From Sphingomonas flavalba (GTDB taxonomy: Bacteria; Pseudomonadota; Alphaproteobacteria; Sphingomonadales; Sphingomonadaceae), in NCBI RefSeq assembly GCF_004796535.1, contig NZ_SPHY01000009.1:62001-126000 (forward strand): a stretch of DNA of 64,000 nt, in the 5' to 3' direction. A program made the translations under genes and the position numbers. The notes under the pieces were generated by a model. The model worked only from the letters and a program-made list of their open reading frames with translations. It had not been told where the DNA came from and made no database searches. The stretch's first letter is position 1, and each line of letters opens with the position of its first letter. This document shows, piece by piece, positions 36,128 through 54,612 of the stretch.

Positions 36128-36541
36128 ATGATCACCCGGCTGGCATCGAGATGGGGCTGCGCGGCCCTGGCTGCGGGCATGGCCATGCCGCTGCACGCGG
36201 CGGAGGACCGCTCGATCGGCATCTGGCGCAACCCGCAGAACAGCGTCCATGTTCGCTCCGCCCCGTGCGGCGACAGCATGTGCGGCACCGTCGTCTGGGC
36301 GAATGACAAGGCGAAGGCCGACGCCCGGCGCGGCGGCACGGACACGCTGGTCGGGCTGGAGTTGTTCCGCAATTTCCGCAAGGACAAGACAGGCAACTGG
36401 CGCGGCAAGGTGTTCGTGCCGGACATCAACAAGACCTTCTCCGGCTCGATCCAGGTCATCGACCCGAACACGCTGAAGGGCAGCGGCTGCCTGATCGGCC
36501 GCGTCGGCTGCAAATCGCAGACCTGGACGCGGATCGAATGA
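36128..36541 (+). CDS. DUF2147 secreted protein
   Basis: About 137 residues. A signal peptide (MITRLASRWGCAALAAGMAM) is followed by the DUF2147 domain: IGIWRNPQNSVHVRSAPCG, MCGTVVWANDKAK, KTGNWRGKVFVPD and GSGCLIGRVGC. Several conserved cysteines suggest disulfides. Homologues are small periplasmic beta-barrel proteins of uncertain function. The stop overlaps the next ATG as ATGA, coupling it to the transpeptidase genes. Confidence 0.86.
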   Translation: MITRLASRWGCAALAAGMAMPLHAAEDRSIGIWRNPQNSVHVRSAPCGDSMCGTVVWANDKAKADARRGGTDTLVGLELFRNFRKDKTGNWRGKVFVPDINKTFSGSIQVIDPNTLKGSGCLIGRVGCKSQTWTRIE

Positions 36542-37533
36542 CCAGCCCCGTCGTCCTGACCCGGCGCCGGCTGGTGGCGGCGGCGCCGCTGCTGGCGCTG
36601 CTCGGCGTCGCCCCGGCGCTTGCCCAGTCGCTCGCCAGCGGCTCGATCGCCGACACGGTCCAGAAGATGAAGCCCGGCGAATATCTGTGGGCACCCGACA
36701 TCGCGCCGCAGGGGCCGGTGGTGATCATCGTCAGCGTCGAAACGCAGCGCGCCTACGTCTACCGCAACGGCGTGCTGATCGGCATCTCCACCGCTTCGAC
36801 CGGCAAGGCCGGGCACGAGACGCCGACCGGGGTATTCACGATCCTGCAGAAGAAGGTCGACCATAAGTCGAACCTCTACAACAACGCGCCGATGCCGTTC
36901 ATGCAGCGGCTGACCTGGGACGGCATCGCCATGCACGCCGGCAACCTGCCCGGCTATCCCGCCTCGCACGGCTGCATCCGCCTGCCGCGCAAATTCGCCG
37001 AGCTGCTCTATGGCGTCACCCGCCTTGGCCTGACCGTCGTCGTCACCGACCGGGCGGAAGTGCCGCGCGTCGCGCCCGGCCCCGGCTTCCTGCAGGAGCC
37101 GGCGGGGGAAGCGCCAGACCTTGCCGGCCGCTCCTTCTGGCGGCCGGAACGGGCGCAGGACGGCCCGCTGTCGATCGTCATCAGCACCGCCGACCGGCGG
37201 ATGCTGGTGTTGCGCAACGGCGTGACGATCGGGTCGGCGCCGGTAGCGATCGCCGAGGCGATCAACGGGCCACGCGCCTACACGCTGCGTGCGATCGACG
37301 CGGACGGCTTCCACTGGATGCGGCTGCTGTTGCCGGGACAAAGCGCCGACGGCGAACCGGTCGAGGTCAGCTCGGCCGAGCGCGCCCGGCTGCATCTGGC
37401 GGAGGATTTCCGCCAGGCCCTCGCCACCGCGCTGGCCCCCGGCGCCACGGTTGTGGTAACCACCGACACCTTGCAGAGCGGCGCCACCGGCAAGAAGCTG
37501 ACGGTGATCGCCGGGGAGGACAAACCGGAATGA
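36538..37533 (+). CDS. L,D-transpeptidase (YkuD) family protein
   Basis: 331 residues. A twin-arginine-like leader (TRRRLVAAAPLLALLG) precedes the YkuD domain. The catalytic motif is MHAGNLPGYPASHGCIRLP, with the nucleophile Cys in SHGCIR. It would link or modify peptidoglycan stem peptides in the periplasm. A second region (SIVISTADRRMLVLRNG) resembles a degenerate repeat of the first strand region. It is between the DUF2147 gene and a second transpeptidase-like gene, both joined by ATGA overlaps. Confidence 0.9.
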   Translation: MTSPVVLTRRRLVAAAPLLALLGVAPALAQSLASGSIADTVQKMKPGEYLWAPDIAPQGPVVIIVSVETQRAYVYRNGVLIGISTASTGKAGHETPTGVFTILQKKVDHKSNLYNNAPMPFMQRLTWDGIAMHAGNLPGYPASHGCIRLPRKFAELLYGVTRLGLTVVVTDRAEVPRVAPGPGFLQEPAGEAPDLAGRSFWRPERAQDGPLSIVISTADRRMLVLRNGVTIGSAPVAIAEAINGPRAYTLRAIDADGFHWMRLLLPGQSADGEPVEVSSAERARLHLAEDFRQALATALAPGATVVVTTDTLQSGATGKKLTVIAGEDKPE

Positions 37534-38144
37534 CCGACAGCCTGTCGAGGCGGCAGATTTTATGGGTGGCCGCCGGGGCGGCGCTGGGCAGCGTGGCGTC
37601 GCCGGTGTTCGCCGCCTTGCCCGCCGGCGATCCGAAGGCCCTGTCCGGGCTGATAACGCGCGCGAACGCCGCGCTCGAACGGCATGGCGATCGCATCGCC
37701 GTTCGCGACCGCTTCGCCGTCGCCGATTTCTCGGCGCCGTCCTGGATGCCGCGCTTCCACCTCGTCGACCGGGCGAGCGGGCGGGTCACCCCTCTGCTCG
37801 TCGCCCATGGTCGCGGCTCGGACCCGGCGCACAGTGGCTGGGTCAGGCGGCTGTCCAACGAACCCGGCTCGCTCGCCTCCTCGGCCGGCGCCTATCTCGC
37901 CGGCGACGCCTATATCGGCAAGCACGGCCAGTCGCGGCGGCTGATCGGGCTTGATCCGACCAACGACAATGCGGAGGCGCGGGCCATCGTCGTCCACGCC
38001 GCCTGGTATGTCGGGCCGAACATGGTGCGCGATCACGGCAAGCTCGGGCGCAGCGAAGGCTGCTTCGCCTTCTCTGAAACCGATCTCGCGCTGGTCATGG
38101 ATCGGCTGGCGCCCGGCACCCTGCTCTACGCCGACCGCGCCTGA
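37530..38144 (+). CDS. Murein L,D-transpeptidase catalytic-domain family protein (YkuD-like, type 2)
   Basis: 204 residues. A signal (LSRRQILWVAAGAALGSVAS) precedes a domain with RFHLVDRASGRV, RAIVVHAAWYVG and the motif LGRSEGCFAFSE, whose Cys is the expected nucleophile (SEGC replaces SHGC). It probably works on peptidoglycan alongside the preceding enzyme. It is last in the three-gene unit 36128-38144, converging on the TonB receptor with a terminator between. Confidence 0.87.
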   Translation: MTDSLSRRQILWVAAGAALGSVASPVFAALPAGDPKALSGLITRANAALERHGDRIAVRDRFAVADFSAPSWMPRFHLVDRASGRVTPLLVAHGRGSDPAHSGWVRRLSNEPGSLASSAGAYLAGDAYIGKHGQSRRLIGLDPTNDNAEARAIVVHAAWYVGPNMVRDHGKLGRSEGCFAFSETDLALVMDRLAPGTLLYADRA

Positions 38145-38160
38145 GCGCTCTCTCCTTCCG

Positions 38161-38185
38161 CAAAAACGACGGCGCCGAAGCGCCG
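38161..38185 (-). terminator. Rho-independent terminator with UUCG loop
   Basis: On the minus strand, CGGCGC-TTCG-GCGCCG forms a 6-pair stem closed by the very stable UUCG tetraloop, followed by TCG and then TTTTT. It lies about 60 bases after the TonB receptor stop and so ends the minus-strand unit. On the plus strand there is no T-tract. Confidence 0.75.
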
Positions 38186-38242
38186 CCAGTGGCTGCCGGA
38201 TGAAGGCGGGAGATGGCTGCCCCCACCCGGCAGGTGCCGACC

Positions 38243-41086
38243 CTAGAACCGCGTCCTGACCCCGATTGTGATGTACCGCCCCATCACGTCGTACAGCGCC
38301 CGCGCCGTCGGCAACTGGCTGCCCGGGTTCTGGTCGGTGACGAAGAACGGCCCCTTCTTGTTGAACAGATTGTTCACCGTCGCGAACATCTGCAGCCCGT
38401 CGCCCATTCCGCCGATATTCTTGCTGAAATTGATATCGGTGTAGAAGGCTGGCGCAATGTGGTTGTCGACATAGTACTGGATCTTCGACTTCACATAGGA
38501 TCCGATCATCCGTTCCTGCACGCCGATGCTGAAACTGTCGTTGGCGTAGGTGATGCTCAGATTGCCGCGCCATTTCGGCAGCGGATAGGTCGACGACAGG
38601 AAGCCCGGCAGGTCGGACGTGCCGGCATATTCGATCAGGTCCGCCGCAGCGGTATCCTGCCGCTTGTACGAAATCAGCCGGGTGCCGAGCAGCCGCGCCG
38701 ACAACGTGCCGTTGCCCACGTCGGCGCGATAGCCGAATTCGAAGTCGACGCCCTTGGTGCTGAGCACCGCGACGTTGTTGTTCACGCCGGACACTTCGAC
38801 CGGAATGTTGTTGGCGTCGCGGGTGATCAGGCTGCACAGCGGGCTTTGCGGGTTCGATCCGCAGCCGAGCAGGATCTGGCTGGAGCTACCCGGCGTGCCG
38901 ATCGCGTCCTTGATCTTGATCCGATAGAAATCGACCGATCCGTAGAAGCCGGCCAGCGCCTGCGGTTGCAGCACGACGCCCAGGGTCAGCGTATCGGCCT
39001 TCTCCGGCTTCAGCGCCGGATTGCCGCCGCCGCGCGTGCGCACGTCGTAGGTGCCGTTGGTCACCGGGTCGAACACCGACTGGATCAGCAGCGTCTGCCC
39101 GGCGAACAGTTCGAACAGCGAAGGCGCGCGGATGTCGCGTGACACCGCCGCGCGCAGGCGGATGTCGCTCACCGGCTCCCACACGCCGCCGAGCTTGAAG
39201 CTGTCAACGCCGCCGCTGGTCGAATAATCGGCATGGCGGAACGCGCCGTTCAGCTCCAGCATCCGGGTGAAGGGCGCATCGGCGATCAGCGGCAGCACCG
39301 CTTCAGCATACACCTCCTTCACATTGTACGATCCGTGCGCAACGCCCACGTTCGTCGATGAAAACAGCGTGCCGTTTCCGCCGCGAATGCCCTGGAAATC
39401 GACCGGAACGTCCGGGTCGCTATTGCTGGTCTGAACGATCTTCTGCTTGCGGATCTCACCACCAAAGGCGACTGTCACCGGCCCGGCCCAGGTCGAGAAC
39501 AGCGAACCGCGGACGTTCAGCACGCCGCTGGTCAGCTCGTTTCTGGTCCGCCACCAGGAATCGTCCAGCACCCACTGCATCGCCGCCGGATCGCCACGCC
39601 CCATGCCGAGCACGTTCAGCGGCACGCAGTCAGCGAAGCGGCTTGGATCGACTTGAGTGATGCGGCAAACCGGCGTGCCGTTCGGGCCGGCGACCGCATC
39701 GACCGCGGCGAACAACTTGTCGCGGCGAATCTCCTGCGTGACGCTGGAAAAGCGGGATTCGCCGTAGGTGAAGGCGGTGTCCCATTTCCAGTCACCGCCC
39801 AACCCGCCGGCCGCACCGACCCGCGCGATTACCGATTTCATCTTCTGCTCGCTGGGAATGGCGCCAAGCCGCTTGGCGCGGGTGTCCCATTCGGTGAAGT
39901 GGCGGGCGATCTGGATGCTCTGCGTGCCGAGCGCCGCCAACTGTGCCGGGGTCAACTGCTGCTGCAGATAGACGTTGTCGGCATAGATCGGGATATTGGT
40001 CGTCCTGAGATTGAAATTCTCGCCGCGATTCTCGTCGGTGTTGAGGCTGGCCTGCGCGAATAGCTCCAGCCCGTCCGCTGCCTCGTAGGTCGCGCGGAAA
40101 AACGCCTGCCCGGTGCTCGATTCCGGCACCAGCGTGCAGTCGACGCACTCGTCCGGGCCGTCACTGCCCTGGCCGAAACCGGCGCGGCCGATCGCGGTGC
40201 CGGCGTTCAATGGCACCAGCGCGCCGGTCGGCAGGAACTGCAGGTTGCGCAGCGCCGCCGGGCCGGCGGTGATCAGGCCGCCGCGCGTCGTCCGGTTGGT
40301 GGTGACGCCCGGATAGTCGAGGAACGGGTTGCCGATCGTGCCGATCGCACCGGACTGCAACGACGGATCACGCGCGCCGGTCACCCACAGATCGCCGGCG
40401 CCCGAACGCGCGTTGCGGCGGGGAATGCCGTCGGTCGAATAATATTCGACGCTCGCCTGCACGCGCAGCCGGTCGTCGAACAGCGCAGTGCCGCCGGCGA
40501 CGCCCAGCCGATAGGAGAAACCGTCGCCATAGGTCGACAGCCCGGCCTGTGCCAGCGCCTTCACCCCCCGGAAACGCGTGTCGGTGACGTAGTTGACCAC
40601 CCCTGACACCGCATCGGATCCGTAGACTGCCGACGCGCCGCCCGTGACCGTCTCGACCCGCTGGATCAGCATCTGCGGGATGACGTTGGTGTCGACGCCG
40701 CCGTTGTTGCCACTCGGCGGCAGGCGGTAGCCATCCTGCAGGACCAGCACACGCTGCGGGCCGAGATTGCGCAGGTTCAGGTAGTTGCCGGAGCGGACAC
40801 GGTTGGAGCTGACCAGCTGCGCCGTCTGCGCATTGACCGCGCCCTGAAACACCGGAAGCTGGTTCAGTCCCTCGGCAATGCCTCCCGGCGCGTTGGCGGC
40901 CAGCGATTCCGTCGTGGCGACGGTCAGCGGCGTCGGCGCACGTGTACCGTCCGAAACGACGCGTGATCCGGTGACGACGATCGCTTCGTCCGCGCCGCTC
41001 TCGCCGGCAACCGACGGCGCCTGCGCCATTGCGATAGAGCTGGCCCCGAACAACAGGCAGGCCATTGAGAATGTTGCACGCGACAT
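38243..41086 (-). CDS. TonB-dependent outer-membrane receptor
   Basis: 947 residues. After a signal peptide (ASSIAMAQA) comes a TonB-box-like EAIVVTGSRV, the plug (VETVTGGASAVYGSDAVSG) and a long barrel that ends in ITIGVRTRF. The NGGVDTNVIPQ and LRNLGPQRVLVL segments are typical of the large sphingomonad/xanthomonad receptor class. It follows the quinoprotein gene by 53 bases and belongs to the second sigma-54-controlled transcript. I infer it imports the ligand that the neighbouring regulon handles. Terminated at 38161-38185. Confidence 0.92.
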   Translation of the reverse strand: MSRATFSMACLLFGASSIAMAQAPSVAGESGADEAIVVTGSRVVSDGTRAPTPLTVATTESLAANAPGGIAEGLNQLPVFQGAVNAQTAQLVSSNRVRSGNYLNLRNLGPQRVLVLQDGYRLPPSGNNGGVDTNVIPQMLIQRVETVTGGASAVYGSDAVSGVVNYVTDTRFRGVKALAQAGLSTYGDGFSYRLGVAGGTALFDDRLRVQASVEYYSTDGIPRRNARSGAGDLWVTGARDPSLQSGAIGTIGNPFLDYPGVTTNRTTRGGLITAGPAALRNLQFLPTGALVPLNAGTAIGRAGFGQGSDGPDECVDCTLVPESSTGQAFFRATYEAADGLELFAQASLNTDENRGENFNLRTTNIPIYADNVYLQQQLTPAQLAALGTQSIQIARHFTEWDTRAKRLGAIPSEQKMKSVIARVGAAGGLGGDWKWDTAFTYGESRFSSVTQEIRRDKLFAAVDAVAGPNGTPVCRITQVDPSRFADCVPLNVLGMGRGDPAAMQWVLDDSWWRTRNELTSGVLNVRGSLFSTWAGPVTVAFGGEIRKQKIVQTSNSDPDVPVDFQGIRGGNGTLFSSTNVGVAHGSYNVKEVYAEAVLPLIADAPFTRMLELNGAFRHADYSTSGGVDSFKLGGVWEPVSDIRLRAAVSRDIRAPSLFELFAGQTLLIQSVFDPVTNGTYDVRTRGGGNPALKPEKADTLTLGVVLQPQALAGFYGSVDFYRIKIKDAIGTPGSSSQILLGCGSNPQSPLCSLITRDANNIPVEVSGVNNNVAVLSTKGVDFEFGYRADVGNGTLSARLLGTRLISYKRQDTAAADLIEYAGTSDLPGFLSSTYPLPKWRGNLSITYANDSFSIGVQERMIGSYVKSKIQYYVDNHIAPAFYTDINFSKNIGGMGDGLQMFATVNNLFNKKGPFFVTDQNPGSQLPTARALYDVMGRYITIGVRTRF

Positions 41087-41139
41087 GATGTTCCCTCCGC
41101 AGCTTTTTAATATTTTAAGTGATTACAGTGTATTATGCT

Positions 41140-43200
41140 CTATTTTTCTTCTTGTGATTTAAGATACTCCGCCACTGCATCGATTTGTTCGGCGCTCATC
41201 CCGGCGGCCAGTGGCTGCATCGTCCCGGTGGTCATCGCCGTGATCAGATGCGGCTTGGGCAGGCTGGCGATCGCCGCCTTGGGCGGCGCTTCCGACACGT
41301 TGGATTCGTGGCAGGCGGCACAGCGTCCGGCGAACAGCGCCTTGCCCTGTGCGACCTTGCCCACCGGCTGGGCCGGCGCCGGCGTGGGCGTCGCAGTCGG
41401 CCGCGGGCGCGGTTTGGCGGATTTCGGCAGCAGGCCGAACGCCTGGACGCGGTCGGTGCCGACCAGCACCAGGCCGTTAACCACCGCCGGCTCGTTATAC
41501 TTGCCGCTCGGGTACAGCTCGCCCGGCGCGGTCTTCCACAACAGCTTCAACGTCGTCGCATCGAAGGCGTAGAGCGTCGGGCGCGGCGCATCGGCGGTGT
41601 CCAGCTTGGTCAGCCGCGGCGCGTTCGGGTCCATCACCCAGACGATGGCGTCCTTGCCGCCATTACTGCTCACCGTCGGCGAGCCGGGGTTGAAGAAGGT
41701 CTGGGTCATCTCCCGCGCCGCGATGCGGGGAAAGGCCGGCTTGCCCGGCGCGGTCATGATCCGCACCTTGATCAGCCCCGGCGGCACCGGCGTCGAATAG
41801 TCCTGCCCCGCCTTGCTGCTGCCGGTGGCGAAGATGAAATGCTGCTTGCCGTCGGAAAAATAGGCGGCGGTCGACCGGCTCTTGGCCGAATTCATCATGC
41901 CGATATCGTCGGAATAAGGGCCGAACAGGTTGATCGGCCCGCGCGTGCCGAACTGCGGCTGCGGTTCCGGGTCGACCAGCGACGTGTCGGTTTCCGGATC
42001 GGTACTGCACGGGTGGCGCTTGACCAGGTCGCCGGGCATATGATCCCGGTCCAGCATGTAGAAATTGCCCTGCTTGCCGCCACCCAGCACCATTAGCCGC
42101 GGCGTCGCGGTTTCCGACGCCGGCAGGTCGACGACGATCGTGCCACTGCTGCCCAGATCGATGTCGTTGGCGGCCACCTGGCAGTAATTGAACGGCGTAT
42201 ATGTGCCGGTCAGCGTAAAGCCCTTGGCCGGGTCGTCGCGCAGCTGGATGATAGACTGGCCCCAGCTATGCGGGCTGTCCGGGTAGACGCCGGGAATGCC
42301 CGCCTTCAGTCGCACCGCCATCAGGTAGCTGGCGCCGGTGGCGATATGCACCCGCCCCTGCTTGTCGATCGACGGGCCGCCGGACGCCCACATGCCGCCC
42401 TGCAACTGGTCGCTGACCGGCGTCGTCGAGAACGCGGAGGCCACCTTGGCGTTGCGGGTATCGATGCTGACTACCCAGCCGCTCTGCCCGTCTTTGCCGA
42501 ACGCCATGTACAGGCGGCTCTTGTCCGGGCTCAGGTTCAGCGCGCCGCGCTGCCAGTGTTTCAGGGTCGACGGAAACTGGTTGGTGCCGTTGCGGGTCAC
42601 GCCCGGCCGGTTGACGGTGGCGGCGTCGACAGTCAGCGGCCAGCCACGCACATCCTCGCCGGTCCTGACGTCGAGCGCGTGCATCTGCCACTGGCGATCC
42701 AGGTCGCAGGAACTGACGTAGATGCGGTTCTGGTCGCGGTCGATAACCGGGGTGCTGAGCACGCCGATCAACTCCAGCGTCCCTTCGCACGGCTTCAACG
42801 CCAGCCGCTTGCGCCACAGGATGGTGCCCGGCGCCACGCCCTTATGGGCGGCGGTGCTGATCGCATAGGCGTAGCCGTTGGTCGTCGCGACATAGGCGAC
42901 GGAGAATCGGCCGCGGTGCTGGCCGGCGGCGATCTTCACCGAATCCAGATAAAGCGGCGACGCCTGCAGCCGCGGCGGCCGCCCCTCGAAACTGTCCAGT
43001 TCCGGCGATTCCCACAACAGGCCGAACCGGTCGCCGGCCACCGCCGCCGGCGTCAGCACCGTCTCATGCGGGTTCCAGCCGGTCCGCTGGGCATCATAAT
43101 GGTATGTCAGCTTGTCGACACGGCCGGGCGCCTCGCCGTCGCCCAGCATCGAGCATGCGGACAACAGGGCGATCGCGGCGAACAGTGGCAGTGTCTTCAT
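41140..43200 (-). CDS. Quinoprotein-like lipoprotein with C-terminal cytochrome c domain
   Basis: About 686 residues. It begins with a lipoprotein signal (LLSACSM, Cys acylated). The bulk is a PQQ-dehydrogenase-like beta-propeller with repeated strand motifs such as AYVATTNGYAYAI and TLYAFDATTLKLLW. A Pro-rich linker leads to a short cytochrome c domain with CAACH at 627-631 and a candidate axial Met in GTMQPLAAG. It probably oxidises an alcohol or sugar in the periplasm and passes electrons through its own haem. It follows a sigma-54 promoter at 43420-43435 and is read together with the TonB receptor. Confidence 0.87.
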   Translation of the reverse strand: MKTLPLFAAIALLSACSMLGDGEAPGRVDKLTYHYDAQRTGWNPHETVLTPAAVAGDRFGLLWESPELDSFEGRPPRLQASPLYLDSVKIAAGQHRGRFSVAYVATTNGYAYAISTAAHKGVAPGTILWRKRLALKPCEGTLELIGVLSTPVIDRDQNRIYVSSCDLDRQWQMHALDVRTGEDVRGWPLTVDAATVNRPGVTRNGTNQFPSTLKHWQRGALNLSPDKSRLYMAFGKDGQSGWVVSIDTRNAKVASAFSTTPVSDQLQGGMWASGGPSIDKQGRVHIATGASYLMAVRLKAGIPGVYPDSPHSWGQSIIQLRDDPAKGFTLTGTYTPFNYCQVAANDIDLGSSGTIVVDLPASETATPRLMVLGGGKQGNFYMLDRDHMPGDLVKRHPCSTDPETDTSLVDPEPQPQFGTRGPINLFGPYSDDIGMMNSAKSRSTAAYFSDGKQHFIFATGSSKAGQDYSTPVPPGLIKVRIMTAPGKPAFPRIAAREMTQTFFNPGSPTVSSNGGKDAIVWVMDPNAPRLTKLDTADAPRPTLYAFDATTLKLLWKTAPGELYPSGKYNEPAVVNGLVLVGTDRVQAFGLLPKSAKPRPRPTATPTPAPAQPVGKVAQGKALFAGRCAACHESNVSEAPPKAAIASLPKPHLITAMTTGTMQPLAAGMSAEQIDAVAEYLKSQEEK

Positions 43201-43327
43201 CGTCCTCTCCAGGGTCTGCAGGGCAGCCCGTGACCCGGCACCGAAACCGTCGGGCCGGCCGTTAATTGTCTTGTTGGAGCGAGGAAGCGGCACGCGCGTG
43301 GCCTAATGTCAGGTACCCTGCTCGTCG

Positions 43328-43365
43328 CCGCCGGCCGCGCGGCCCGGCGGCTGCGGCGCAGCCGC
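43328..43365 (-). promoter_or_regulatory. Two overlapping hairpins in the leader of the quinoprotein gene
   Basis: Within the predicted 5' leader, CCGCCGG (43328-43334) pairs with CCGGCGG (43344-43350), and GCGGCTGC (43347-43354) pairs with GCAGCCGC (43358-43365). The arms share 43347-43350, so both cannot form fully at once, as in attenuators. No U-tract follows. The region is otherwise gene-free: 43201-43541 holds only these, the sigma-54 promoter and an upstream site. Confidence 0.4.
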
Positions 43366-43419
43366 AACGCTCGGGAATCCGCGGGTTCGGTTCCTCCTCA
43401 CCCTGTTCCATTCCGGTTC

Positions 43420-43435
43420 AGCAAATTACGTGCCA
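43420..43435 (-). promoter_or_regulatory. Sigma-54 promoter in front of quinoprotein and TonB receptor
   Basis: Read on minus, TGGCAC-GTAAT-TTGCT is a consensus -24/-12 promoter (TGGCAC-N5-TTGCW). The same core occurs at 47884-47899. The start of transcription should be near 43409, giving a leader of about 210 bases before the gene at 43200. A GTTACC-CAAT-GGTAAC dyad sits about 63-80 bases upstream. Confidence 0.85.
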
Positions 43436-43497
43436 AGTCCGAAACCACGCATTTCGGCGGCGGCGGTGCGCCGGGCGGCCTGCCCCCGGCGCAGAAT

Positions 43498-43515
43498 TGT
43501 TACCCAATGGTAACA
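43498..43515. promoter_or_regulatory. Upstream activator-type palindrome
   Basis: TGTTACC-CAAT-GGTAACA is a perfect 7-pair dyad with a 4-base centre. It lies 63-80 bases upstream of the sigma-54 promoter, the usual place for an enhancer-binding protein. Its GTTAC half-site recurs several times ahead of the other sigma-54 promoter (47945-47994). Confidence 0.7.
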
Positions 43516-43541
43516 GCCACTGCCAAACTACACAGCACCCC

Positions 43542-44405
43542 CTATTCGGGCAGCGGCGTGTCGGGCGTCTTGACCCGCGTCGAGTCCTTGTAGGTCCGGC
43601 GCGGCTCGGGCGCCGGAACCGGGTTGGAAATGAACCGGCCGCTGATATCCGGGAAACTGTCGAGCGGCTTGATGACGATGTCCTTGAACTGGACATAGCT
43701 CGGCTTGGATATGTGGAGCTGGAGGCCGATCAGCCCATCCCTGGGGCTGAGCGGATCGTTGATCGTCGCATCGATCGCCAGATACCCGTTGACCGCCTGG
43801 ACGACGCGGTTGCCGTGGACGATCACCACGCCCTCGTTCCACGCCTCGCCGGTCGGCTTCACCGCCTTCAATATCGCCTCGCGCGGGTTGACCATCTCGG
43901 TCACGCTACGGACGATCCGCCCGGTGCCGCCGCCGCCGGACTGGATCCGGGTGACCTCCGCCCGCTGGCCGAGCAGCACCATTTCCTGCCGGTCGCCCAG
44001 CTCGTCATACAGCATCGCGAACCGGTCGATGTCCTTGGTGATCGGCGTCACATTGGCCTGCATTCCGGCCATCGCGAAATTGCCGGGCACCTGGCCGCTG
44101 CGGAACTGGATACCGGAATTGCCGAAATCATTGGCGAAGCGATATTTGAACCGCAGCTCGAAATTGGGAAATTCCCGCTCCAGGATCAGATAGGTATTCT
44201 TGTCGATCAGCTGTTCCGAACCGCCGGTGATCGCCCCGTCGCGCACCGACCACAACGTCATGTCGCCACGCCAGCCGCTCAGTGTCTTGCCGTCGAACAG
44301 CGAAATGAAACCATCCGGCACCGCTGCCGGTGCCTTCGCCACGGCCGGACCGGCCAAGGCGATAAGAACCGCGCCGATCGCTGCGGTTGCACCCATTCGT
44401 TTCAT
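43542..44405 (-). CDS. DUF1080 protein (3-keto-disaccharide hydrolase family)
   Basis: About 287 residues. A signal peptide (cleavage near GPAVA) precedes the concanavalin-like DUF1080 domain with FISLFDGKTLSGWRGD at its start, FRSGQVPG and GLIGLQLHISKPSYVQFKDI at its end. Some DUF1080 proteins hydrolyse 3-keto-glycosides, which suggests oxidised sugars as substrates here. The ATG at 44405 follows GGGAG at 9-10 bases. It is the last gene of the operon beginning at 47848, 56 bases after the ThuA-cupin gene. Confidence 0.87.
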   Translation of the reverse strand: MKRMGATAAIGAVLIALAGPAVAKAPAAVPDGFISLFDGKTLSGWRGDMTLWSVRDGAITGGSEQLIDKNTYLILEREFPNFELRFKYRFANDFGNSGIQFRSGQVPGNFAMAGMQANVTPITKDIDRFAMLYDELGDRQEMVLLGQRAEVTRIQSGGGGTGRIVRSVTEMVNPREAILKAVKPTGEAWNEGVVIVHGNRVVQAVNGYLAIDATINDPLSPRDGLIGLQLHISKPSYVQFKDIVIKPLDSFPDISGRFISNPVPAPEPRRTYKDSTRVKTPDTPLPE

Positions 44406-44461
44406 GTTACGCTCCCTTTCAGACTGGCCTTTGCTTCTGCCGTTCCCGGCGGCGCCCGGCG

Positions 44462-45697
44462 TCATTCGCCGATCGCCACGCGGTCGGCGGAGTTGAACGA
44501 CACCATCAACACCGCATCCTCGGTGCCGATGTTGCGCGCATTGTGGATGGTGCCCTCCGGGATCATCACCGTGTCGCCGGCGCGCATCTCGTATTCCTTG
44601 TCACCGACCCGATGCATGATCCGGCCCTGCACGACGTAGAGCACCTCGTCGCAATTCGGGTGCCAGTGCGGTGGGTTTGCGTCGCCGGGGCGGATCGTCG
44701 CGCGGCCGGTCGTCAGATGGGACGCGTTGCCCAGCGAACGATGGGCGAACCACTCCAGCTGGCCCCACGGCGTCTTTTCGACGGTGACCTCGCTGCCCGC
44801 GCGGACGATCAGCTGCGGCTCGGGCGGCGGTGCGACACCGGGCGCCGGCGCCTCCGGCAGGGCCGCGGTCACCCCGCCGTCCGGTACCGTGTTGCCGCTG
44901 CTCCACAGGATCGCGTTCAGCACCATCCGCCGCACCTGCGGCTGGTCGAGGAAGGCGAGGAAATGGCCGCCGGCAAAGCCGAACGACCGGCCGCCGCCGG
45001 GCCGCTCATAAGCCCAGGCGGCGACGCCGGGCCGCGCATCCTCGTAAACCGGGGCGCCGCCCTGGTACTGGACATGGGCGCGGGCGCTGAGGATTGGGGT
45101 CACCCCGGCGGCGCGGAAATCGATCGCCGCGTAATATTCGTCGAGATGGTCGAAATCGCCGACCCCTTTCGCGACCGGATGCGCCTCGCCAACGACGGCG
45201 ACCGGGGCGATTTCGATCGACCAGCCGCCGCCGGCCGCGCGCGAGGCGCCCAGCCAGTTCTGCGTCGCGGCCGCCTGCCCGGCATCGGCGACGGTCATCG
45301 CCTGGTGCAGCGCGACCAGCCCGACGCCGCGCGCCGCCAGTCGATCCATCTGCCCGCGGGCGGCAGGGCTGAACAGCGAGCCACCGTCGCGGTTCTCGCC
45401 CTGCGGCGCCTGATAGAGGACGACGACGCTGGCATCGTCGATCTCGGCCGGGTCGCGGGGAAAGCCGCCGGGATAGGTGCGGATAACCGGGTTCAGCTTC
45501 GCGAAATCGGGCGATGCCTTGATCAGCCGCTCCAGCTTGATCACCCCGTTGGGAAAGTCATGCTGCCCCTGGTCGGCCCCCTGCCGCTCGCCGCCGATCA
45601 GCACGATCGTCGGTGCGCCCGCCGTGCGAGCAGCCGATGGTGCTGCAAGCAGGGCGATCGCCGCCACCGGCGACAGGATGCGGCATAGTCGAGTCAT
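44462..45697 (-). CDS. ThuA-like domain fused to a cupin
   Basis: 411 residues. A signal peptide (LLAAPSAARTAG) leads to a ThuA/trehalose-utilisation-like domain (about 28-270; VGLVALHQAMT and FGFAGGHFLAFLDQPQVRRM) with a glutamine-amidotransferase-like fold. The cupin (about 310-411) has ANPPHWHPNCDEVLYVVQG and PEGTIHNARN, a complete metal-binding His set. ThuA homologues act on 3-keto sugars, and the cupin could be an isomerase or sugar binder. It lies between the TIM-barrel gene and DUF1080. Start 45697 follows a GGAGGAGAG ribosome site. Confidence 0.82.
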   Translation of the reverse strand: MTRLCRILSPVAAIALLAAPSAARTAGAPTIVLIGGERQGADQGQHDFPNGVIKLERLIKASPDFAKLNPVIRTYPGGFPRDPAEIDDASVVVLYQAPQGENRDGGSLFSPAARGQMDRLAARGVGLVALHQAMTVADAGQAAATQNWLGASRAAGGGWSIEIAPVAVVGEAHPVAKGVGDFDHLDEYYAAIDFRAAGVTPILSARAHVQYQGGAPVYEDARPGVAAWAYERPGGGRSFGFAGGHFLAFLDQPQVRRMVLNAILWSSGNTVPDGGVTAALPEAPAPGVAPPPEPQLIVRAGSEVTVEKTPWGQLEWFAHRSLGNASHLTTGRATIRPGDANPPHWHPNCDEVLYVVQGRIMHRVGDKEYEMRAGDTVMIPEGTIHNARNIGTEDAVLMVSFNSADRVAIGE

Positions 45698-45726
45698 GGT
45701 TCTTCTCTCCTCCATTCCGGCGGCGC

Positions 45727-46593
45727 TCATCGTGCCGCCGCCCGGGCGGCGCCCGCGCCGGCGCGGCTCAGCGTCAAGCTGGTGAAGCGCCCGACCTGCT
45801 CGGTGATCGCGATTTCCGCTGGCAGCCGCTCCATCGACGTCGCGCCGAAGAAGCCGTCGACCTCCGGACAGGCTTGGAGCACGAAGGCGACGTCCTCGGG
45901 CGAGGAGATCGGCCCGCCGTGGCACAAGGCGATGATGTCCGGCCGCTCGCTGCGCGCCGCGTCGACGATGGTCCGTACCGTCCGCGCCGCAACGTCCAGC
46001 GTCATCGCGGTCTTGGCGCCGATGCGCCCGCCGGTGGTCAGGCCCATATGGGCGACGACGATGTCGGCGCCCGCCCGCGCCATCTGCCGCGCCTGCTCGG
46101 CGTCGAAGACATAGGGGGTGGTCAGCAACCCCGCTTCATGGGCGCGGGCGATCAGCGTCACCTCCTTGTCGAAACTCATGCCCGTCTCTTCCAGGTTCAG
46201 CCGGAATGATCCGTCGATCAACCCAACGGTCGGGAAGTTCTGGACACCGGCGAAGCCCATGCTGATGATTTCGCGCAGGAACTGGTCGGTCAGCAGGAAC
46301 GGATCGGTGCCGTTGACCCCGGCCAGCACCGGCGTGCGCTCGACGATGGTCAGCACCTCCCGGCCCATCTCGAGGACGATCTCATTGGCGTTTCCATAGG
46401 CCAGCAGCCCGCTCAGCGAGCCGCGCCCGGCCATGCGGAACCGGCCGGAATTATAGATGATCAGCAGGTCGGCGCCGCCGTCCTCGGCGCATTTCGCGGA
46501 AATGCCGGTGCCGGCCCCGCTGCCGATGATCGGCTTGCCGGCGGCGATCTTCTCGCGGAACCCGTTGACAATATCTTCGCGCTTCCAGTTCAT
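45727..46593 (-). CDS. TIM-barrel 'phosphoenolpyruvate hydrolase' family protein
   Basis: 288 residues. The barrel has [41 protein letters not shown] and [12 protein letters not shown] as conserved loops, and [11 protein letters not shown] near the end. The family name is historical and the reaction uncertain. The same fold forms the C-terminal half of tomato Tm-1, whose N-terminal half matches the next gene upstream. It is also strikingly similar to the N-terminal domain of the sigma-54 activator at 48009-49763. 28 bases separate it from the UPF0261 gene. Confidence 0.86.
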
Positions 46594-46621
46594 GTGACCT
46601 CCGGGTGGAAATGATGTGATG

Positions 46622-47848
46622 TCAGCGCGCCAGCCGCCGATAGGCATCGACGACAGCCTGCGCGAAAGCGGGGTCGTTGATGTGCAGCGGGTGGCGGGTG
46701 ATCGTGCGGTTCGGCCCCTGCGCCACGCTCGCCTCAAGCGTGGCGAACAGCGCGGCATCGGCCTCGGGGTCGTGGAACGGGTTGCCGGGCCGGTCCAGCT
46801 CGGACACCCCGCCCTCGGGGATCAGCAGGACAAAGCCGGCATCGGGATAGGCGTTCAGCTTGCCGGCGATCCAGCGCGCGCAAGCGATATTCTCGTCGAC
46901 GCTGGTCCGCATCAGCGTGATGCTGGCGTTGTGGACGTGCAGCCGGCGCTCGCGAAACTGCGCGGGCACGCTGTCGAGCGGCCCGAAATTGACCATGTCG
47001 AGCGCGCCGAGCGACAGCACATAGGGCAAGCGGCGGTCCAGCATCCGTTCGAACCGGTCCGGCCCGCAGGGAAAGATGCCGCCGACGATTTCGTCCGCCA
47101 CCTCGGTCGTGGTGATGTCGAGCACCCCGTCGAGCAGGCCGCTGGCGACCAGGTCCTCCATCGCCCGCCCGCCGGCGCCGGTGGCGTGGAAGGTCAGGAC
47201 GTCCGCCCCCTCCCCCTCCAGCATGGCACGCACGCTCGTGACACAGGGCGTCGTCACGCCGAACATGGTGACGCCGATCGCCGCCGCGCCGCCGTCGTCG
47301 CGCTGTTCGGGCCGTGCTCGCACCGCGCCAGCAATCGCCCCAGCCGCGTTGCGGAACACCTGCCGCGACACCCGGTTCAGCCCGGCGACGTCAACCACCG
47401 ACGGCATCAGCATGATATCGCTGGTGCCGATATAGCTGCTGGTGTCGCCGCTCGCGACGGTGCTCACCATCACCTTGGGGAAACCGACCGGCAGCGCCTG
47501 CATCGCCCGCGCGATCATCGACGTGCCGCCGGTGCCGCCAAGGCCGATCACCCCGGCGCATCGCCCCGCCGCCACTGCCTCGCCAAGGAAGCCGCGCAGC
47601 GCAAGGCTCATCGCGGTGACCGCGCTGCCGCGGTCGCTATGCGCCAGCACCGCCGGCGCCCCGTCCGGATGGTGGCGGGCAACGGCGGCTCGGTCGATAT
47701 CCGCTTCGCCGCCCGGCGGCGCCAGCGTGCCGACGTCGACCAGCATGGCCGCCTCGCCACATGCCGCGATCGCGTCGGCCACGAAGCGCGCTTCGCTGAA
47801 CTTGGTGTCCAGCGTCGCCACCACATAGATCGGCCGCGGCCTCGCCAT
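46622..47848 (-). CDS. Tm-1-like ATP-binding protein (UPF0261)
   Basis: About 408 residues. Family motifs are [21 protein letters not shown] at the start, [37 protein letters not shown] and [18 protein letters not shown]0261 is the N-terminal half of plant Tm-1; nucleotide binding is known for that domain. It heads the operon and has a near-consensus sigma-54 promoter 36 bases upstream. Start: two adjacent ATGs (47851 and 47848) follow AGGAGG; 47848 has the better spacing. The chemical role is not known to me. Confidence 0.87.
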
Positions 47849-47883
47849 CATGCCTCCTCCCTTTCGCCTTTGCCCAGGGAACC

Positions 47884-47899
47884 AGCAATAAGCGTGCCA
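47884..47899 (-). promoter_or_regulatory. Sigma-54 promoter of the Tm-1-like operon
   Basis: Read on minus, TGGCAC-GCTTA-TTGCT matches the -24/-12 consensus. It is identical in both blocks to the promoter at 43420-43435. Transcription should begin near 47873, about 25 bases before the ATG at 47848. GTTAC-type repeats lie 46-95 bases upstream. Confidence 0.87.
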
Positions 47900-47944
47900 C
47901 CAGCCAGAACGCCGCAACTCAAGACATTGCACCACCGCTGCGGC

Positions 47945-47994
47945 GTTACCCTGTTACCGATGCCGGGTCAGGGTTACACCGGTGCGCCAGTAAC
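47945..47994. promoter_or_regulatory. Repeated GTTAC half-sites upstream of the sigma-54 promoter
   Basis: GTTACC occurs at 47945 and 47953, GTTACACC at 47973, and inverted GTAAC at 47990-47994. GTTACCCTG (47945-47953) and CAGGGTTAC (47969-47977) form an inverted repeat with one mismatch. The region is 46-95 bases upstream of the promoter and just beyond the activator gene's stop. Site number and pairing are inferred. Confidence 0.62.
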
Positions 47995-48008
47995 GGCCGC
48001 CGGCGGCG

Positions 48009-49763
48009 TCATTTCCCGTCGCCGCGCGTCAACTTGGCGTACAGGGTTTTTCGGCTGATCCCCAGCGCCGCCGCCGCGACGCTCTTGTTGCCGTTGGCTC
48101 GTTCCAGCGCCGCTTCGATGTCGCGCACGCCGATCCGCCGGGCATTGGCGATCGGCGACAACTCGGCGCCGCCGCTGTCCGGGTGGAAATGGATGCCACG
48201 GAGGACCGGCCCGTCCTCCAGGATTGCGGCGCGGGCAATCACCTGCATCAATTCACGGATATTGCCGGGCCAGCTGTGCCGCGCCAGCTTGCGTTCGAAC
48301 CGTTCGTCGATCGACAGCGCCGGAATACCCAATTCAGCCGCCGTCTTGCGCAGGAATGTGCTGACCAGATCGGGAATGTCGTCGGTCCGCTCGCGCAGCG
48401 GCGGCACCGCCAGGGTGACGGTGCTCAGCCGGTAATACAGGTCGGACCGGAACTTGCCCTCCTGCACCAGCCGGGCAAGCGACTGGTTGGTCGCGGCGAT
48501 CACCCGCACGTTCAGCGGGATCGGGTTGTCGCCGCCGACCCGCACCACCTCGCGCTGCTGGAGCACACGCAGCAGCGCGACCTGCGCCGCCGGGCTGAGA
48601 TCGGCGATCTCGTCGAGCAGCAGGGTACCGCGATTGGCCAGCTCGAACTTGCCGATGCGCCGCCGGTCGGCGCCGGTAAACGATCCGCGCTCGTGACCGA
48701 ACAGCTCGCTCTCCAGCAACCCGGCCGGGATCGCGCCGCAATTCAGGGTGATGAACGCCTGCTTGGAGCGCGGGCTGATCTGGTGGATCAGCGCCGCCGC
48801 CATTTCCTTGCCGACGCCGGTCTCGCCCTCGATGACGACGTTGACGTCGAACGGCGCAACCCGCTCGATCGTCGCCATCATCTCGCGGCAGGCGTCGGAG
48901 CGGCCGACGATCTCGTGGCGCTTGGGGTGCTCCAGGTCCGGCCCGGTCGCCCGCAACGCTTTGCAACGCCGCACGAAGTTGGAGGTGATCGCCTGCACCG
49001 GCAACCGCTCGAACACCGATCCGCCGGCGATGCCGTCGATCCGCGCCTGCTGGAACAGCGTGCTGAAATCGTCGACATCGGTGAACGGCCCGCCATAGAC
49101 GAGGCAGAGCGGCCGCGACGGCAGCGCCTGCAGTACCTCGATCATCTCGTTGATATAGCCGATCGCGCTTTGCAGCGCGTCGCGCCGGTCACCGAGCGCA
49201 AAGCGCACCGGGGTCAGGCCTGCGTTGACGATATAGGCGTCGACCTCGACCTCTGCAAACCGGTGCAGGTCGGCCTCGCTCAGCACGAAGGCAAACGTTG
49301 CCAGTCCCTTCTCCCCGGCGCGGCGCAGCAGGTCCACCTCGCTGGCGATACCCAGCCCCTCCTCCTCCAGCGCCAGCCGGATCTGCCCGTCGACGAAGCC
49401 GGCGGTCGGCCAGTTGGTCACCCCCTGCACGCCGATCGCGCGCAGGTGGTCGAGCTGGCGGTCGAGGTCGATCGCCGGGTCGCTCGCCATCACTCCGGCG
49501 ACGACCGGCAGGCCGCCGGCGTTGGGCAGGATGTGGCGCCGCAGCAGATCCTCGGTCTGCTCGTTGGCGTTGCCGTAGGCGAGCATTGATGCCAGCGATC
49601 CGCAGCCGACACTGCGGTACAACCCGGCGTTCAGCGCCAGCAGCAGGTCCGCGCCCGCGTCGACCGCATATTGCGAAATCTGGCCGGTCCCGGCGGAAAC
49701 GGCGACGATCGGCGACGCATTGCCGTCCCGCTGCTGCGCCAGGCGCTTGACCATTTCATGCAT
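48009..49763 (-). CDS. Sigma-54-dependent activator with TIM-barrel sensor domain
   Basis: 584 residues. Residues 1-275 are a TIM-barrel homologous to the enzyme at 45727-46593: [36 protein letters not shown] and GGSVFERLP align with it. Next is an AAA+ domain: Walker A GETGVGKE (313-320), sigma-54 loop GSFTGA (360-365), Walker B LLLDEIADL (381-389), arginine-finger region to about 460. A Fis-type helix-turn-helix ends the chain (546-580: AALGISRKTLYAKL). It should bind the GTTAC repeats and open the two sigma-54 promoters. The start was taken at the ATG at 49763, where the barrel begins. Confidence 0.93.
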   Translation of the reverse strand: MHEMVKRLAQQRDGNASPIVAVSAGTGQISQYAVDAGADLLLALNAGLYRSVGCGSLASMLAYGNANEQTEDLLRRHILPNAGGLPVVAGVMASDPAIDLDRQLDHLRAIGVQGVTNWPTAGFVDGQIRLALEEEGLGIASEVDLLRRAGEKGLATFAFVLSEADLHRFAEVEVDAYIVNAGLTPVRFALGDRRDALQSAIGYINEMIEVLQALPSRPLCLVYGGPFTDVDDFSTLFQQARIDGIAGGSVFERLPVQAITSNFVRRCKALRATGPDLEHPKRHEIVGRSDACREMMATIERVAPFDVNVVIEGETGVGKEMAAALIHQISPRSKQAFITLNCGAIPAGLLESELFGHERGSFTGADRRRIGKFELANRGTLLLDEIADLSPAAQVALLRVLQQREVVRVGGDNPIPLNVRVIAATNQSLARLVQEGKFRSDLYYRLSTVTLAVPPLRERTDDIPDLVSTFLRKTAAELGIPALSIDERFERKLARHSWPGNIRELMQVIARAAILEDGPVLRGIHFHPDSGGAELSPIANARRIGVRDIEAALERANGNKSVAAAALGISRKTLYAKLTRGDGK

Positions 49764-50009
49764 GGAACGAACCGGGCATTGCGTATGACACTGATACTCT
49801 TTCGCTGGCCGATTGCCGCCTCCGGCAGGTCCGGCGGCGCGCTGGCGGCCGATCGGCGCCGCACGGATCATGTTCGATACGGCTTTCCCCACACCACGGA
49901 TGCCCGGCCGCTGCAGGCGCGCCGAACCTAGGCTGGCCCGTGCCGTGAAATCAACCCGCCGGCGTCTGGACCTTTCGCATGGCCGGTGTCGCAGCCGTGC
50001 CGCTTAACT

Positions 50010-51209
50010 CTAACCCGGCCGCCCGTCGCTGCGCGGCGTCGTATAGATGTGCGCGGCCCACAGCACCCATGGCAGGAATGCGATCAGCCAGCCGAGCGCG
50101 GCGGCGCTCTGCCAGGCCAGCCAGTCCTCCGCCAGTTCGCCGCCCACCCGCAACAGGCAGACGATTTGCACCGCGACGAACGCGTACAGCGCGACCGGCG
50201 GCAGGACGAGCGGTCGTCCGGAATGTCCCTGCGTCACCCTGGTCACCATCGCCACCAGGATGCTGCCGAAAAAGCCGACGAACAGCGCATGCGCCGGCGC
50301 TCGGCCCAGGATCACCTCGCCGTGCAGCGCCAGCGCCAGGTCCTGCACCGTATACAGCGCGAAGGCGATCGGCAGCCAGGTGAGCCCGGCGAACAGCACG
50401 AACAGCAGCGGCGGCATCCGGTGGCGCGGAAACCAACGCCACAGCAGGTACAGGCTGAGCAGGAACAGCGGCAGGTCGGCGATCCACAGCCGCTCGGCGG
50501 GCAGCGCGACATGCAGCGCCATCAGCGCCCAGCCCGCGCCCAGCACCCAGGCCGGCCGCCACGGCTGGTATCCGGGCACGACATTGCCGGCGAAAAACGG
50601 AAACATGCGGTGGGCGACGGTGAAATAGACCGGGGTGAGCAGGCCGAAAGTGCCAATCTTGATCGCCAGGTCGCCCGTGGCCGCATCGCGGCCGAGCAGG
50701 TAGACCAGCCACAACACCAGCCCGGCCGCCCCGGCGCACAGCGCGCCATAGCAGCCGACCAGATGCCATGTCCGCCCCCGGTCGCGCCAGGCCAGTCGGC
50801 CCAGCGGCACCAGCGCCACCAGCCAGCCGGCCAGCGTCGCCGTCGCCCCCAGCACCGCGCCCGCCTGCCAGCCAAGCGCTCCGCCCAGCGTCAGCAACTG
50901 GCCGCCGAGCAGCCCGGCCGCCACCGGCACCGCATAGCCACGCGCGATCTCCGGTTGGCCGATCCAGCGCGGAAACACGGTCAACAGGAAGCCGAAGAAA
51001 AAGCTGGGAAGCACCTGATATTGCATCAGAAAGGCGTGCAGCCGCCCGGCATAGGGGTCGGGCTGCGGCATCGGCAGCAGCGGCCAGCGCGCGGCGGCCA
51101 GCCACAACGCCCACCACGCCATGGCAAGCAGCAGGTTCAGCCCCCCGACGAAGAACATCATTCGATGCGGCGCCCGGCCGAGATGGACGATCGACGGCGA
51201 CGAAGACAT
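50010..51209 (-). CDS. NnrS-family membrane protein
   Basis: About 399 residues with some 12 membrane helices. Family features include an early FFVGGLNLLLAMAWWALWLA helix, GRLHAFLMQYQVLPSFFFGFLLT, PVYFTVAHRMFPFFAGNVVPGY and HALFVGFFGSILVAMVTRVTQGHSGR. NnrS is a haem and copper membrane protein that protects against nitric oxide. The ATG at 51209 has AAGGAGGTG about 8-10 bases upstream. The quinol nitric-oxide reductase lies 1 kb away on the same strand. Confidence 0.9.
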   Translation of the reverse strand: MSSSPSIVHLGRAPHRMMFFVGGLNLLLAMAWWALWLAAARWPLLPMPQPDPYAGRLHAFLMQYQVLPSFFFGFLLTVFPRWIGQPEIARGYAVPVAAGLLGGQLLTLGGALGWQAGAVLGATATLAGWLVALVPLGRLAWRDRGRTWHLVGCYGALCAGAAGLVLWLVYLLGRDAATGDLAIKIGTFGLLTPVYFTVAHRMFPFFAGNVVPGYQPWRPAWVLGAGWALMALHVALPAERLWIADLPLFLLSLYLLWRWFPRHRMPPLLFVLFAGLTWLPIAFALYTVQDLALALHGEVILGRAPAHALFVGFFGSILVAMVTRVTQGHSGRPLVLPPVALYAFVAVQIVCLLRVGGELAEDWLAWQSAAALGWLIAFLPWVLWAAHIYTTPRSDGRPG

Positions 51210-51448
51210 GGCGCGACACCTCCTTGCTGCGCGATTTTCCCCTGACAACGCAACACACAAGCCCGGCACGCCCCTGTAGCGCAAATTCGGCGACCGCGCG
51301 CCGCCATTTCCACACCTTGCGCGAAGATTACGTGGCGTAGGACCATCAACCGGGCGCTGCCCCCGTGCCCCTGCGAAAGCAGCGGCCCGGAACGTATAAA
51401 CGGCGCGGCGATGCCGGGGAGCGCCCCGGCCCGTTTGCACCACCAGGC

Positions 51449-51988
51449 TCAGGCGACAGCCGGGTAGGTTACCCTGCCATCCTCACCCACCCGCGCCCCC
51501 GGCGTCAGGGTCGCCGTCACCGCCCGGCCGGGGTCCATCAGGTGGAACACGGCCTCGCCGCCGGCCAGTAAATAGTCGGTGACGATCCGCCGGTGGCACC
51601 GCCACCATACCGCCTCGGAACACATGATCGCGCAGCGCCGCGCGCGGCCAAGCGCGATCAGTTGGTCAAGCCCGGCACGGAACGGCGCGGTCAGCGCATA
51701 GTCGGCATAGTTGTGGAAGCTGCGATTGTCCCAGAACCCGTTGGTATCCGGCTCGGCCGCTTTCACCCGGCCGCGCAGCCCGCCCAGTTCTGCGATATGG
51801 GTATAGCCGATCTGGAACGGTGCCAGCGCATCGCCCAGGACGTCGAAATTATACTGCGGGTTGGTCCGCGACCGCGGCACAGATCGAATGTCGACGACGA
51901 CATCGACCGCGCCGACCCGCAGCAATGCGCAAAACGCCTCGATCGTCCGGGTCGAATGGCCGATGGTGTGGAACGGCGACGCCGTCAT
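51449..51988 (-). CDS. DUF488 family protein
   Basis: 179 residues. The DUF488 signature is complete: FHTIGHSTRTIEAFCALL, VVDIRSVPRSRTNPQYN, ELGGLRGRV and the cysteine motif MCSEAVWWRCHRRIV. Members are small cytosolic proteins of unknown biochemical role, often linked to nucleic acid or metal binding through the Cys motif. It overlaps the next gene's stop by 4 bases, so the two are probably co-translated. Confidence 0.86.
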   Translation of the reverse strand: MTASPFHTIGHSTRTIEAFCALLRVGAVDVVVDIRSVPRSRTNPQYNFDVLGDALAPFQIGYTHIAELGGLRGRVKAAEPDTNGFWDNRSFHNYADYALTAPFRAGLDQLIALGRARRCAIMCSEAVWWRCHRRIVTDYLLAGGEAVFHLMDPGRAVTATLTPGARVGEDGRVTYPAVA

Positions 51989-54553: not shown

Positions 54554-54612
54554 AGCGCCCCCCAAGGTGCCGGCAGATGGGGCACTATGTCATATCAAAG
54601 GGTAATCCCCAA

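Follow-up and report, generated by a model that had tools for sequence, protein, structure and literature searches.

The presence of a PF09370 (TIM_br_sig_trns) domain at the N terminus of sigma-54 activators is already in print, in one sentence of PMC5167734 citing Bush and Dixon 2012. An activator with the same domain order as in that source (PF09370, AAA+, Fis-type HTH) is encoded in the window, that is, the whole 64-kb stretch of Sphingomonas flavalba DNA analysed here. Unlike in the available description in PMC5167734, its sensor is paired with an enzyme paralogue encoded in a target operon. UPF0261 and PF09370 (TBST) proteins co-occur and co-evolve, according to the passages available from PMC5028733. 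Neither these passages nor those of PMC5167734 contain a regulon, a binding site or a ligand, whereas here promoters, candidate sites and targets can be tied to the activator. The word "sigma" is absent from the main text of PMC5028733, and the accessible parts of PMC3646685 make no mention of the PF09370 sigma-54 activator architecture. No description of the regulon, operator or ligand was found among the open-licence papers listed. The sensor-activator architecture is known, while the regulon with its promoters and candidate operator is apparently undescribed.

The UPF0261/PF09370 family extends to land plants, and one of its members is Tm-1, the virus-resistance protein of tomato. The window resembles Tm-1 and its bacterial UPF0261/TBST homologues, as presented in the available passages of PMC5028733, in that its UPF0261 protein, with both N- and C-terminal domains present, matches the Tm-1 chains 3wry/3wrw at about 1e-108 and the PF09370 partner gene is adjacent. 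It differs from Tm-1 in having separate genes rather than one fused protein, and in that the pair probably belongs to a catabolic sigma-54 regulon that also contains a DUF1080 gene. No UPF0261 relatives were found among viral contigs. A second related system is the Caulobacter LacABC/DUF1080 3-keto-glycoside pathway (PMC9007349, seen in part), in which a DUF1080 protein is proposed as a periplasmic 3'-ketolactose hydrolase; the same source names the DUF1080 protein BT2157 a 3-ketotrehalose hydrolase. As in that pathway, the DUF1080 protein of the window is clustered with a redox protein and an outer-membrane receptor. However, no LacA/LacB-type dehydrogenase is found among the Pfam matches of the cluster, which has a propeller-cytochrome protein instead. 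The catabolic activators MobR and PrpR (NCBIfam) are comparable in their alignable AAA+ and HTH domains, in having an N-terminal sensor, and in a gene position beside probable catabolic genes. In contrast, their scores here are below the curated cut-offs, the AAA+/HTH part alone aligns, and the window sensor is a TIM barrel.

The best explanation of the sequence, to which a probability of about 85% is assigned, is that the two -24/-12 sites listed in the table are genuine sigma-54 promoters of one small shared regulon. The activator would bind TGTYACC-type half-sites located 50-95 nt upstream of each promoter. A small molecule bound in its N-terminal TIM barrel would cause the AAA+ domain to remodel the waiting RNA polymerase-sigma-54 complex, so that operon 1 (UPF0261, PF09370 enzyme, ThuA-cupin and DUF1080) and, separately, operon 2 (propeller-cytochrome and TonB receptor) would be switched on. 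The products probably take up a glycoside and degrade it in the periplasm through 3-keto oxidation and cleavage, with part of it processed by the UPF0261/PF09370 pair. The sequence itself shows the sites, how rare they are in the genome, their conservation, their association with an intact activator, the half-sites common to them and the residue differences between sensor and enzyme. Binding, activation, operon structure, ligand identity and substrate are deduced here, and the ligand and the pathway steps are much less certain than the rest.

Features of the predicted regulon, in positions of the 64-kb window
Feature	Position	Strand	Basis
Sigma-54 activator: PF09370 TIM-barrel sensor, AAA+ (GSFTGA), Fis-type HTH	48009..49763	-	start by homology to L038
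Candidate activator site 1: four GTNAC half-sites, 50-95 nt upstream of the -24 start	47945..47994		sequence motif
Promoter 1: -24/-12 element TGGCACGCTTATTGCT	47899..47884	-	strict-core match and counterpart sites in relatives
UPF0261 protein (Tm-1 N-terminal family), first gene of operon 1	46622..47851	-	profile and structure matches
PF09370 "PEP hydrolase-like" enzyme, paralogue of the activator's sensor	45727..46593	-	profile and structure matches
ThuA-cupin fusion protein	44462..~45697	-	Pfam; start is one of three ATG listed
DUF1080/3-keto-disaccharide hydrolase family protein, last gene of operon 1	43542..44405	-	PF06439, 112.3 bits
Candidate activator site 2: TGTTACC-CAAT-GGTAACA, half-sites 68 and 79 nt upstream of the -24 start	43498..43515		sequence motif
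Promoter 2: -24/-12 element TGGCACGTAATTTGCT	43435..43420	-	strict-core match and counterpart sites in relatives
Propeller-like protein with C-terminal cytochrome c, first gene of operon 2	41140..43200	-	weak PQQ_2, below cut-off
TonB-dependent receptor, second gene of operon 2	38243..41086	-	profile match

Sigma-54 promoters are defined by a TGGCAC-N5-TTGCW core with invariant GG and GC. Both window sites have this -24/-12 core, the invariant GG and GC included, and they are its only matches in the window, located on the minus strand 4464 bases apart. In the initial annotation, the second promoter was described as identical to the first. This is correct for the TGGCAC and TTGCT blocks but not for the spacers, which read GTAAT at one site and GCTTA at the other. 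The same annotation held two matches 4.4 kb apart to be improbable by chance, and the counts agree: 0.04 strict matches are expected per window, and none of 100 dinucleotide shuffles gave two. Its concern that the core might be common in coding regions is answered for the strict core by a scan of the whole genome (3,071,096 bases in 35 contigs), where the strict core occurs seven times and the reversed pattern twice. Each of the seven sites was read, and all lie directly upstream of genes, one of them (L006) additionally overlapping the 3' end of an open frame upstream. Besides the window pair, the genes concerned encode two PEP-CTERM proteins (L001, L003), the flagellar proteins FlgB (L002) and FliK-type (L006), and a transglycosylase-domain protein (L007), the last assignment being a weak match barely above the cut-off. 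The genome encodes one sigma-54, recognised by a single match to the rpoN-type DNA-binding domain (PF04552, 227.6 bits).

The looser core TGGCAYR-N5-TGCW is less discriminating. It is found 14 times in the genome of the window against 7 for the reversed control, and 19 against 9, 18 against 15 and 17 against 28 times in three related genomes. The evidence in relatives is consequently carried by position and context rather than by the bare motif. This closeness of the loose core to background is the one point in favour of two unrelated matches in GC-rich sequence, an explanation that is hardly credible given the excess of strict sites over expectation, their location before genes and their conservation in relatives. 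Chance resemblance was rejected on the basis of the shuffles, the reversed-pattern genome counts and the tracking of the operon promoter with an intact activator, described below. Two observations concern other sites in the genome. Strict -24/-12 cores precede the PEP-CTERM surface-protein genes on contigs C1 and C17 (L001 and L003), where leaders of 57 and 39 nt are predicted, and two loose sigma-54-like sites (L123, C12:182087-182102; L125, C16:14549-14564) precede very short frames of 53 and 36 codons from ATG, respectively.

On the minus strand, the order of elements is activator, promoter at 47899, UPF0261, PF09370 enzyme, ThuA-cupin, DUF1080, promoter at 43435, propeller-cytochrome and TonB receptor. 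The second site thus occupies the position claimed for it, ahead of the genes for the propeller/cytochrome protein and the TonB receptor, which start at 43200 and 41086, respectively. The predicted transcription starts are at about 47873 and 43409, giving leaders of 22 and 209 nt. Promoter 2 is an outlier among the strict sites because leaders at the other six are 22-57 nt long (about 25-57 nt at the five outside the window). Leaders of the matching genes in relatives vary as well, with lengths of 62, 122, 131 and 254 nt. A structured regulatory RNA in the 209-nt leader was considered and rejected (z -1.19; 29 of 200 shuffles equally stable), and no Rfam match at the gathering threshold was found in 37000-50500. 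A repeated element was also rejected, as the 111-base middle part of the leader is single-copy in the genome.

The atypical leader leads to the question of whether only the 47899 site works, the 43435 site being a relic and operon 2 being read from elsewhere or by read-through from operon 1. The DUF1080 gene, which ends at 43542, merely 342 nt ahead of the operon 2 gene start, is compatible with such read-through. Nevertheless, this reading is very unlikely, since the 43435 site fits the strict core, with an unbroken palindrome located 68-79 nt upstream of it, and since the matching gene in both Sphingomonas relatives has its own sigma-54-type site and is encoded on the opposite strand to the UPF0261 operon.

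Conservation was assessed at two levels. An orthologous activator was found in one of 147 relatives searched (G067, 76% identity). A wider scan covered one genome per species in 84,980 species with two peptide patterns, and the best 80 loci were kept, each encoding a PF09370 enzyme more than 45% identical to that of the window. The closest among the matches listed are Sphingomonas sp. SCN 67-18 (L040, the same genome as G067), Sphingomonas colocasiae (L041) and a Verrucomicrobiia MAG (L042). Gene order varies between these loci: the gene divergent from the activator is the propeller gene in L038/L040 and the UPF0261 operon in L041. Despite this rearrangement, both window promoters recur in the two Sphingomonas strains, and one recurs in the Verrucomicrobiia MAG. 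Counterparts of promoter 1 are located at L040 11896(+), L041 9854(-) and L042 9838(-), and those of promoter 2 at L038 5896(-), which is L040 9847(-), and at L041 11864(+). Sites were scored with a matrix set by hand from the sigma-54 consensus. Over the whole 18.5 kb of L038, the two highest scores belong to the UPF0261 promoter and the propeller gene promoter. L040 and L041 each have four strong sites as their best, exclusively ahead of cluster genes, namely the UPF0261 operon, the two propeller genes (1 and 2) and an FAA hydrolase/MFS/gentisate-dioxygenase-like operon. In L042, one site precedes the PF09370/UPF0261 operon and a second, at 2648(-), is located upstream of a TonB-plug protein gene.

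The 80 loci also allow the presence of the operon promoter to be compared with the state of the activator. Scoring covered the roughly 350 bases ahead of the UPF0261/PF09370 operon, whose position was set by tblastn; for L052 and L077, which have no UPF0261 match, this was probably the region upstream of the PF09370 gene alone. A site scoring at least 14 (a threshold set after the L040 and L042 sites, both at 14.1, had been seen) precedes the operon in all three loci with an intact activator, in none of the six with a degenerate one, and in none of the 71 without such a fusion in the locus, a set that contains numerous related enterobacteria and should not be counted as 71 independent cases. 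The best score in the 77 loci lacking an intact activator is 11.2. The shared regulon claimed in the initial annotation is supported, as the promoters are conserved in rearranged relatives, appear to track the intact activator, have common half-sites and would be served by one sigma-54.

The activator itself has the features expected for such a function. Walker A and GAFTGA motifs are functional features of the AAA+ domain of sigma-54 activators, and in the window protein the Walker A motif (GETGVGKEMA) and the GSFTGA loop are intact. The AAA+ domain matches PF00158 with 223.6 bits, the N-terminal domain PF09370 with 229.9 bits, and the C-terminal Fis-type HTH PF02954 with 41.5 bits. The candidate operator was derived from the DNA upstream of ten promoters (window, L040 and L041), each of which has two to four GTNAC half-sites at a distance of 40-120 nt. 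As two divergent promoter pairs share half-sites, distinct ones were counted, giving 27 in 650 distinct nt against a background of 0.23-0.28 per 100 nt, with the motif derived from the same promoters on which it was counted. A T precedes 22 of the 27 half-sites, a position outside the selection, and a C follows 16 of them, which yields the consensus TGTYACC as a predicted, candidate operator. GTNAC is absent from the 220-nt stretches preceding the other five strict sites in the genome, which served as controls, and in L042 there are no half-sites in the same upstream interval at either promoter. In a search for further regulon members in the genome, the seven loose sites L120-L126 had 0, 0, 1, 0, 2, 0 and 0 GTNAC in the 150 nt upstream, L124, the only one with two, being a possible member.

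The sites could also be real sigma-54 promoters at which another activator of the genome serves one or both, the PF09370 activator having other targets. Seven strong sigma-54 activator domains are present in the genome, this activator being one, so there is room for such an arrangement, and the half-sites are unequal in number and spacing between the promoters. It is nonetheless distinctly unlikely, because the enzyme-operon promoter is present in 3 of 3 loci with this activator and in 0 of 77 without an intact copy, and because like half-sites precede both window promoters and are absent before the five other strict sites.

Only two PF09370 matches exist in the genome, the activator sensor and the operon 1 enzyme (413 bits). 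Both match the solved structure 2p10, the sensor with 2.8e-39 and the enzyme with 2.6e-109. An alignment of 81 enzymes (the window and the 80 loci) with ten sensors reveals two histidines, H182 and H225, that are kept in all enzymes and replaced in all sensors. Position 182 is Asn in the sensors, and position 225 is Tyr or Phe in the sigma-54-type sensors and Glu in the degenerate ones. Because these two enzyme-invariant residues are replaced in all ten sensors, residue conservation suggests that the sensor is a catalytically dead paralogue. It would follow that the inducer is probably the substrate or product of the PF09370 enzyme or a close analogue, since the sensor is a paralogue of this enzyme without the two invariant histidines.

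An active barrel would change this picture: the sensor would then regulate through turnover, as a trigger enzyme, and not as a dead paralogue that binds a ligand. Many barrel residues are indeed retained in the four sigma-54-type sensors, e.g., D42, N48, R53, N119, P121, D127, R131, E135, E144, G226-P228 and E255-R256. Against this retention stand the two replaced histidines and, in the sigma-54-type sensors, changes at Y47, R51, R57, Q118 and T195 as well, and regulation by turnover is considered unlikely. A 30-sequence tree built from 20 of the enzymes and all ten sensors places the sigma-54-type and the degenerate sensors in separate groups, each with 100/99 support, and sets the enzymes apart from both (90/96). 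The tree has long branches and no known root and is compatible with one or two sensor origins. In a tentative scenario, rather less probable than even, one copy of a duplicated catabolic enzyme of the Tm-1 partner family (PF09370) would have given up the histidines needed for catalysis and taken on ligand sensing in a sigma-54 activator, whose targets include an enzyme from the same family; the UPF0261/PF09370 pair would in this case act on a compound released from a phenolic glycoside by 3-keto cleavage. If this were true, the inducer of the regulon would reveal the substrate of the pair. The regulon would provide a direct assay, in which inducers of both promoters are candidate substrates or products of UPF0261/PF09370.

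The sigma-54 form of the PF09370 activator looks rare and patchy in its distribution. PF09370-like matches at E <= 1e-30 occur in 36 of 385 genomes sampled from the class, with the window's own match at 507 bits and the next at 187. Eleven of the matches located in long open frames were read, and eight of these also match the AAA+/HTH part of the activator; none of the 11 has the GAFTGA/GSFTGA loop or the Walker A lysine motif by the patterns used. Among 387 genomes of the phylum of the Verrucomicrobiia MAG, a sensor-type match by score occurs in that MAG only (450 bits, next 176). The six degenerate PF09370-AAA+ proteins among the 80 loci are likewise without a GAFTGA-type loop and have Arg in place of the Walker A lysine. 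Proteins of this kind, lacking the Walker A lysine and GAFTGA, were noted in L046 (1236-2978), L049 (1289-3133), L064, L069, L098, L118, L159 and L163-L169, those of L046, L049, L064, L069, L098 and L118 being near UPF0261/PF09370 operons. In L046 and L049, where both neighbourhoods were read, branched-chain-type ABC transporter genes are nearby, and a partial PF09370-like protein (276 aa, 61.5 bits) is encoded between the degenerate activator and the transporter genes of L046 (2982-3812, minus strand). It is possible that the degenerate proteins are former sigma-54 activators, perhaps with another mechanism. As sigma-54 promoters accompany the intact activators and not their degenerate relatives, the family offers a natural test of when a sigma-54 activator ceases to be one.

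Read most simply, the gene content suggests that a phenolic glycoside would be taken up and cleaved by a 3-keto route, and that its aglycone or its sugar part would be handled by the UPF0261/PF09370 pair. The DUF1080 protein has, by eye, a signal-peptide-like N terminus. The propeller-cytochrome protein could be the oxidase. As a candidate glycoside 3-dehydrogenase, the window offers only the weak PQQ_2 match of this protein, below the cut-off, together with cytochrome c. This protein has no PDB match at E <= 0.01 and a poor structure model (pLDDT 47.9), and the cytochrome domain is missing from the four propeller homologues aligned. The UPF0261 gene of L042 has, downstream of it and in the same orientation, genes for a GFO/IDH-type oxidoreductase and a ThuA-HEAT protein, the former protein reaching 136 bits against the BT_2158 glycoside 3-dehydrogenase, for which the cut-off is 750. 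Three further proteins belong to the regulon of L040 and L041, namely an MFS symporter, an FAA hydrolase and a gentisate-dioxygenase-like protein (244 bits against a cut-off of 442), and it is for this reason that phenolic glycosides are indicated. As none of the three has a match in the window, it is the relatives that point to a phenolic compound. A gentisate-dioxygenase-like gene elsewhere in the genome was rejected as a member, as only a 35% identical protein was found and the best site in its 4-kb locus scores 11.7. No tested activity of the UPF0261/PF09370 pair is named in the best family and structure matches or in the literature passages available.

Two groups of genes border the cluster. 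Upstream of the activator, a nitric-oxide cluster on the minus strand comprises NnrS (50010-51443), DUF488 (51449-51988) and a NorB-type nitric oxide reductase (52295-54565) that bears its own cytochrome c-like domain. At the other end, adjacent L,D-transpeptidase genes (YkuD and YkuD_2; 36538-38144, plus strand) converge on the TonB receptor gene, about 100 bases from its stop.
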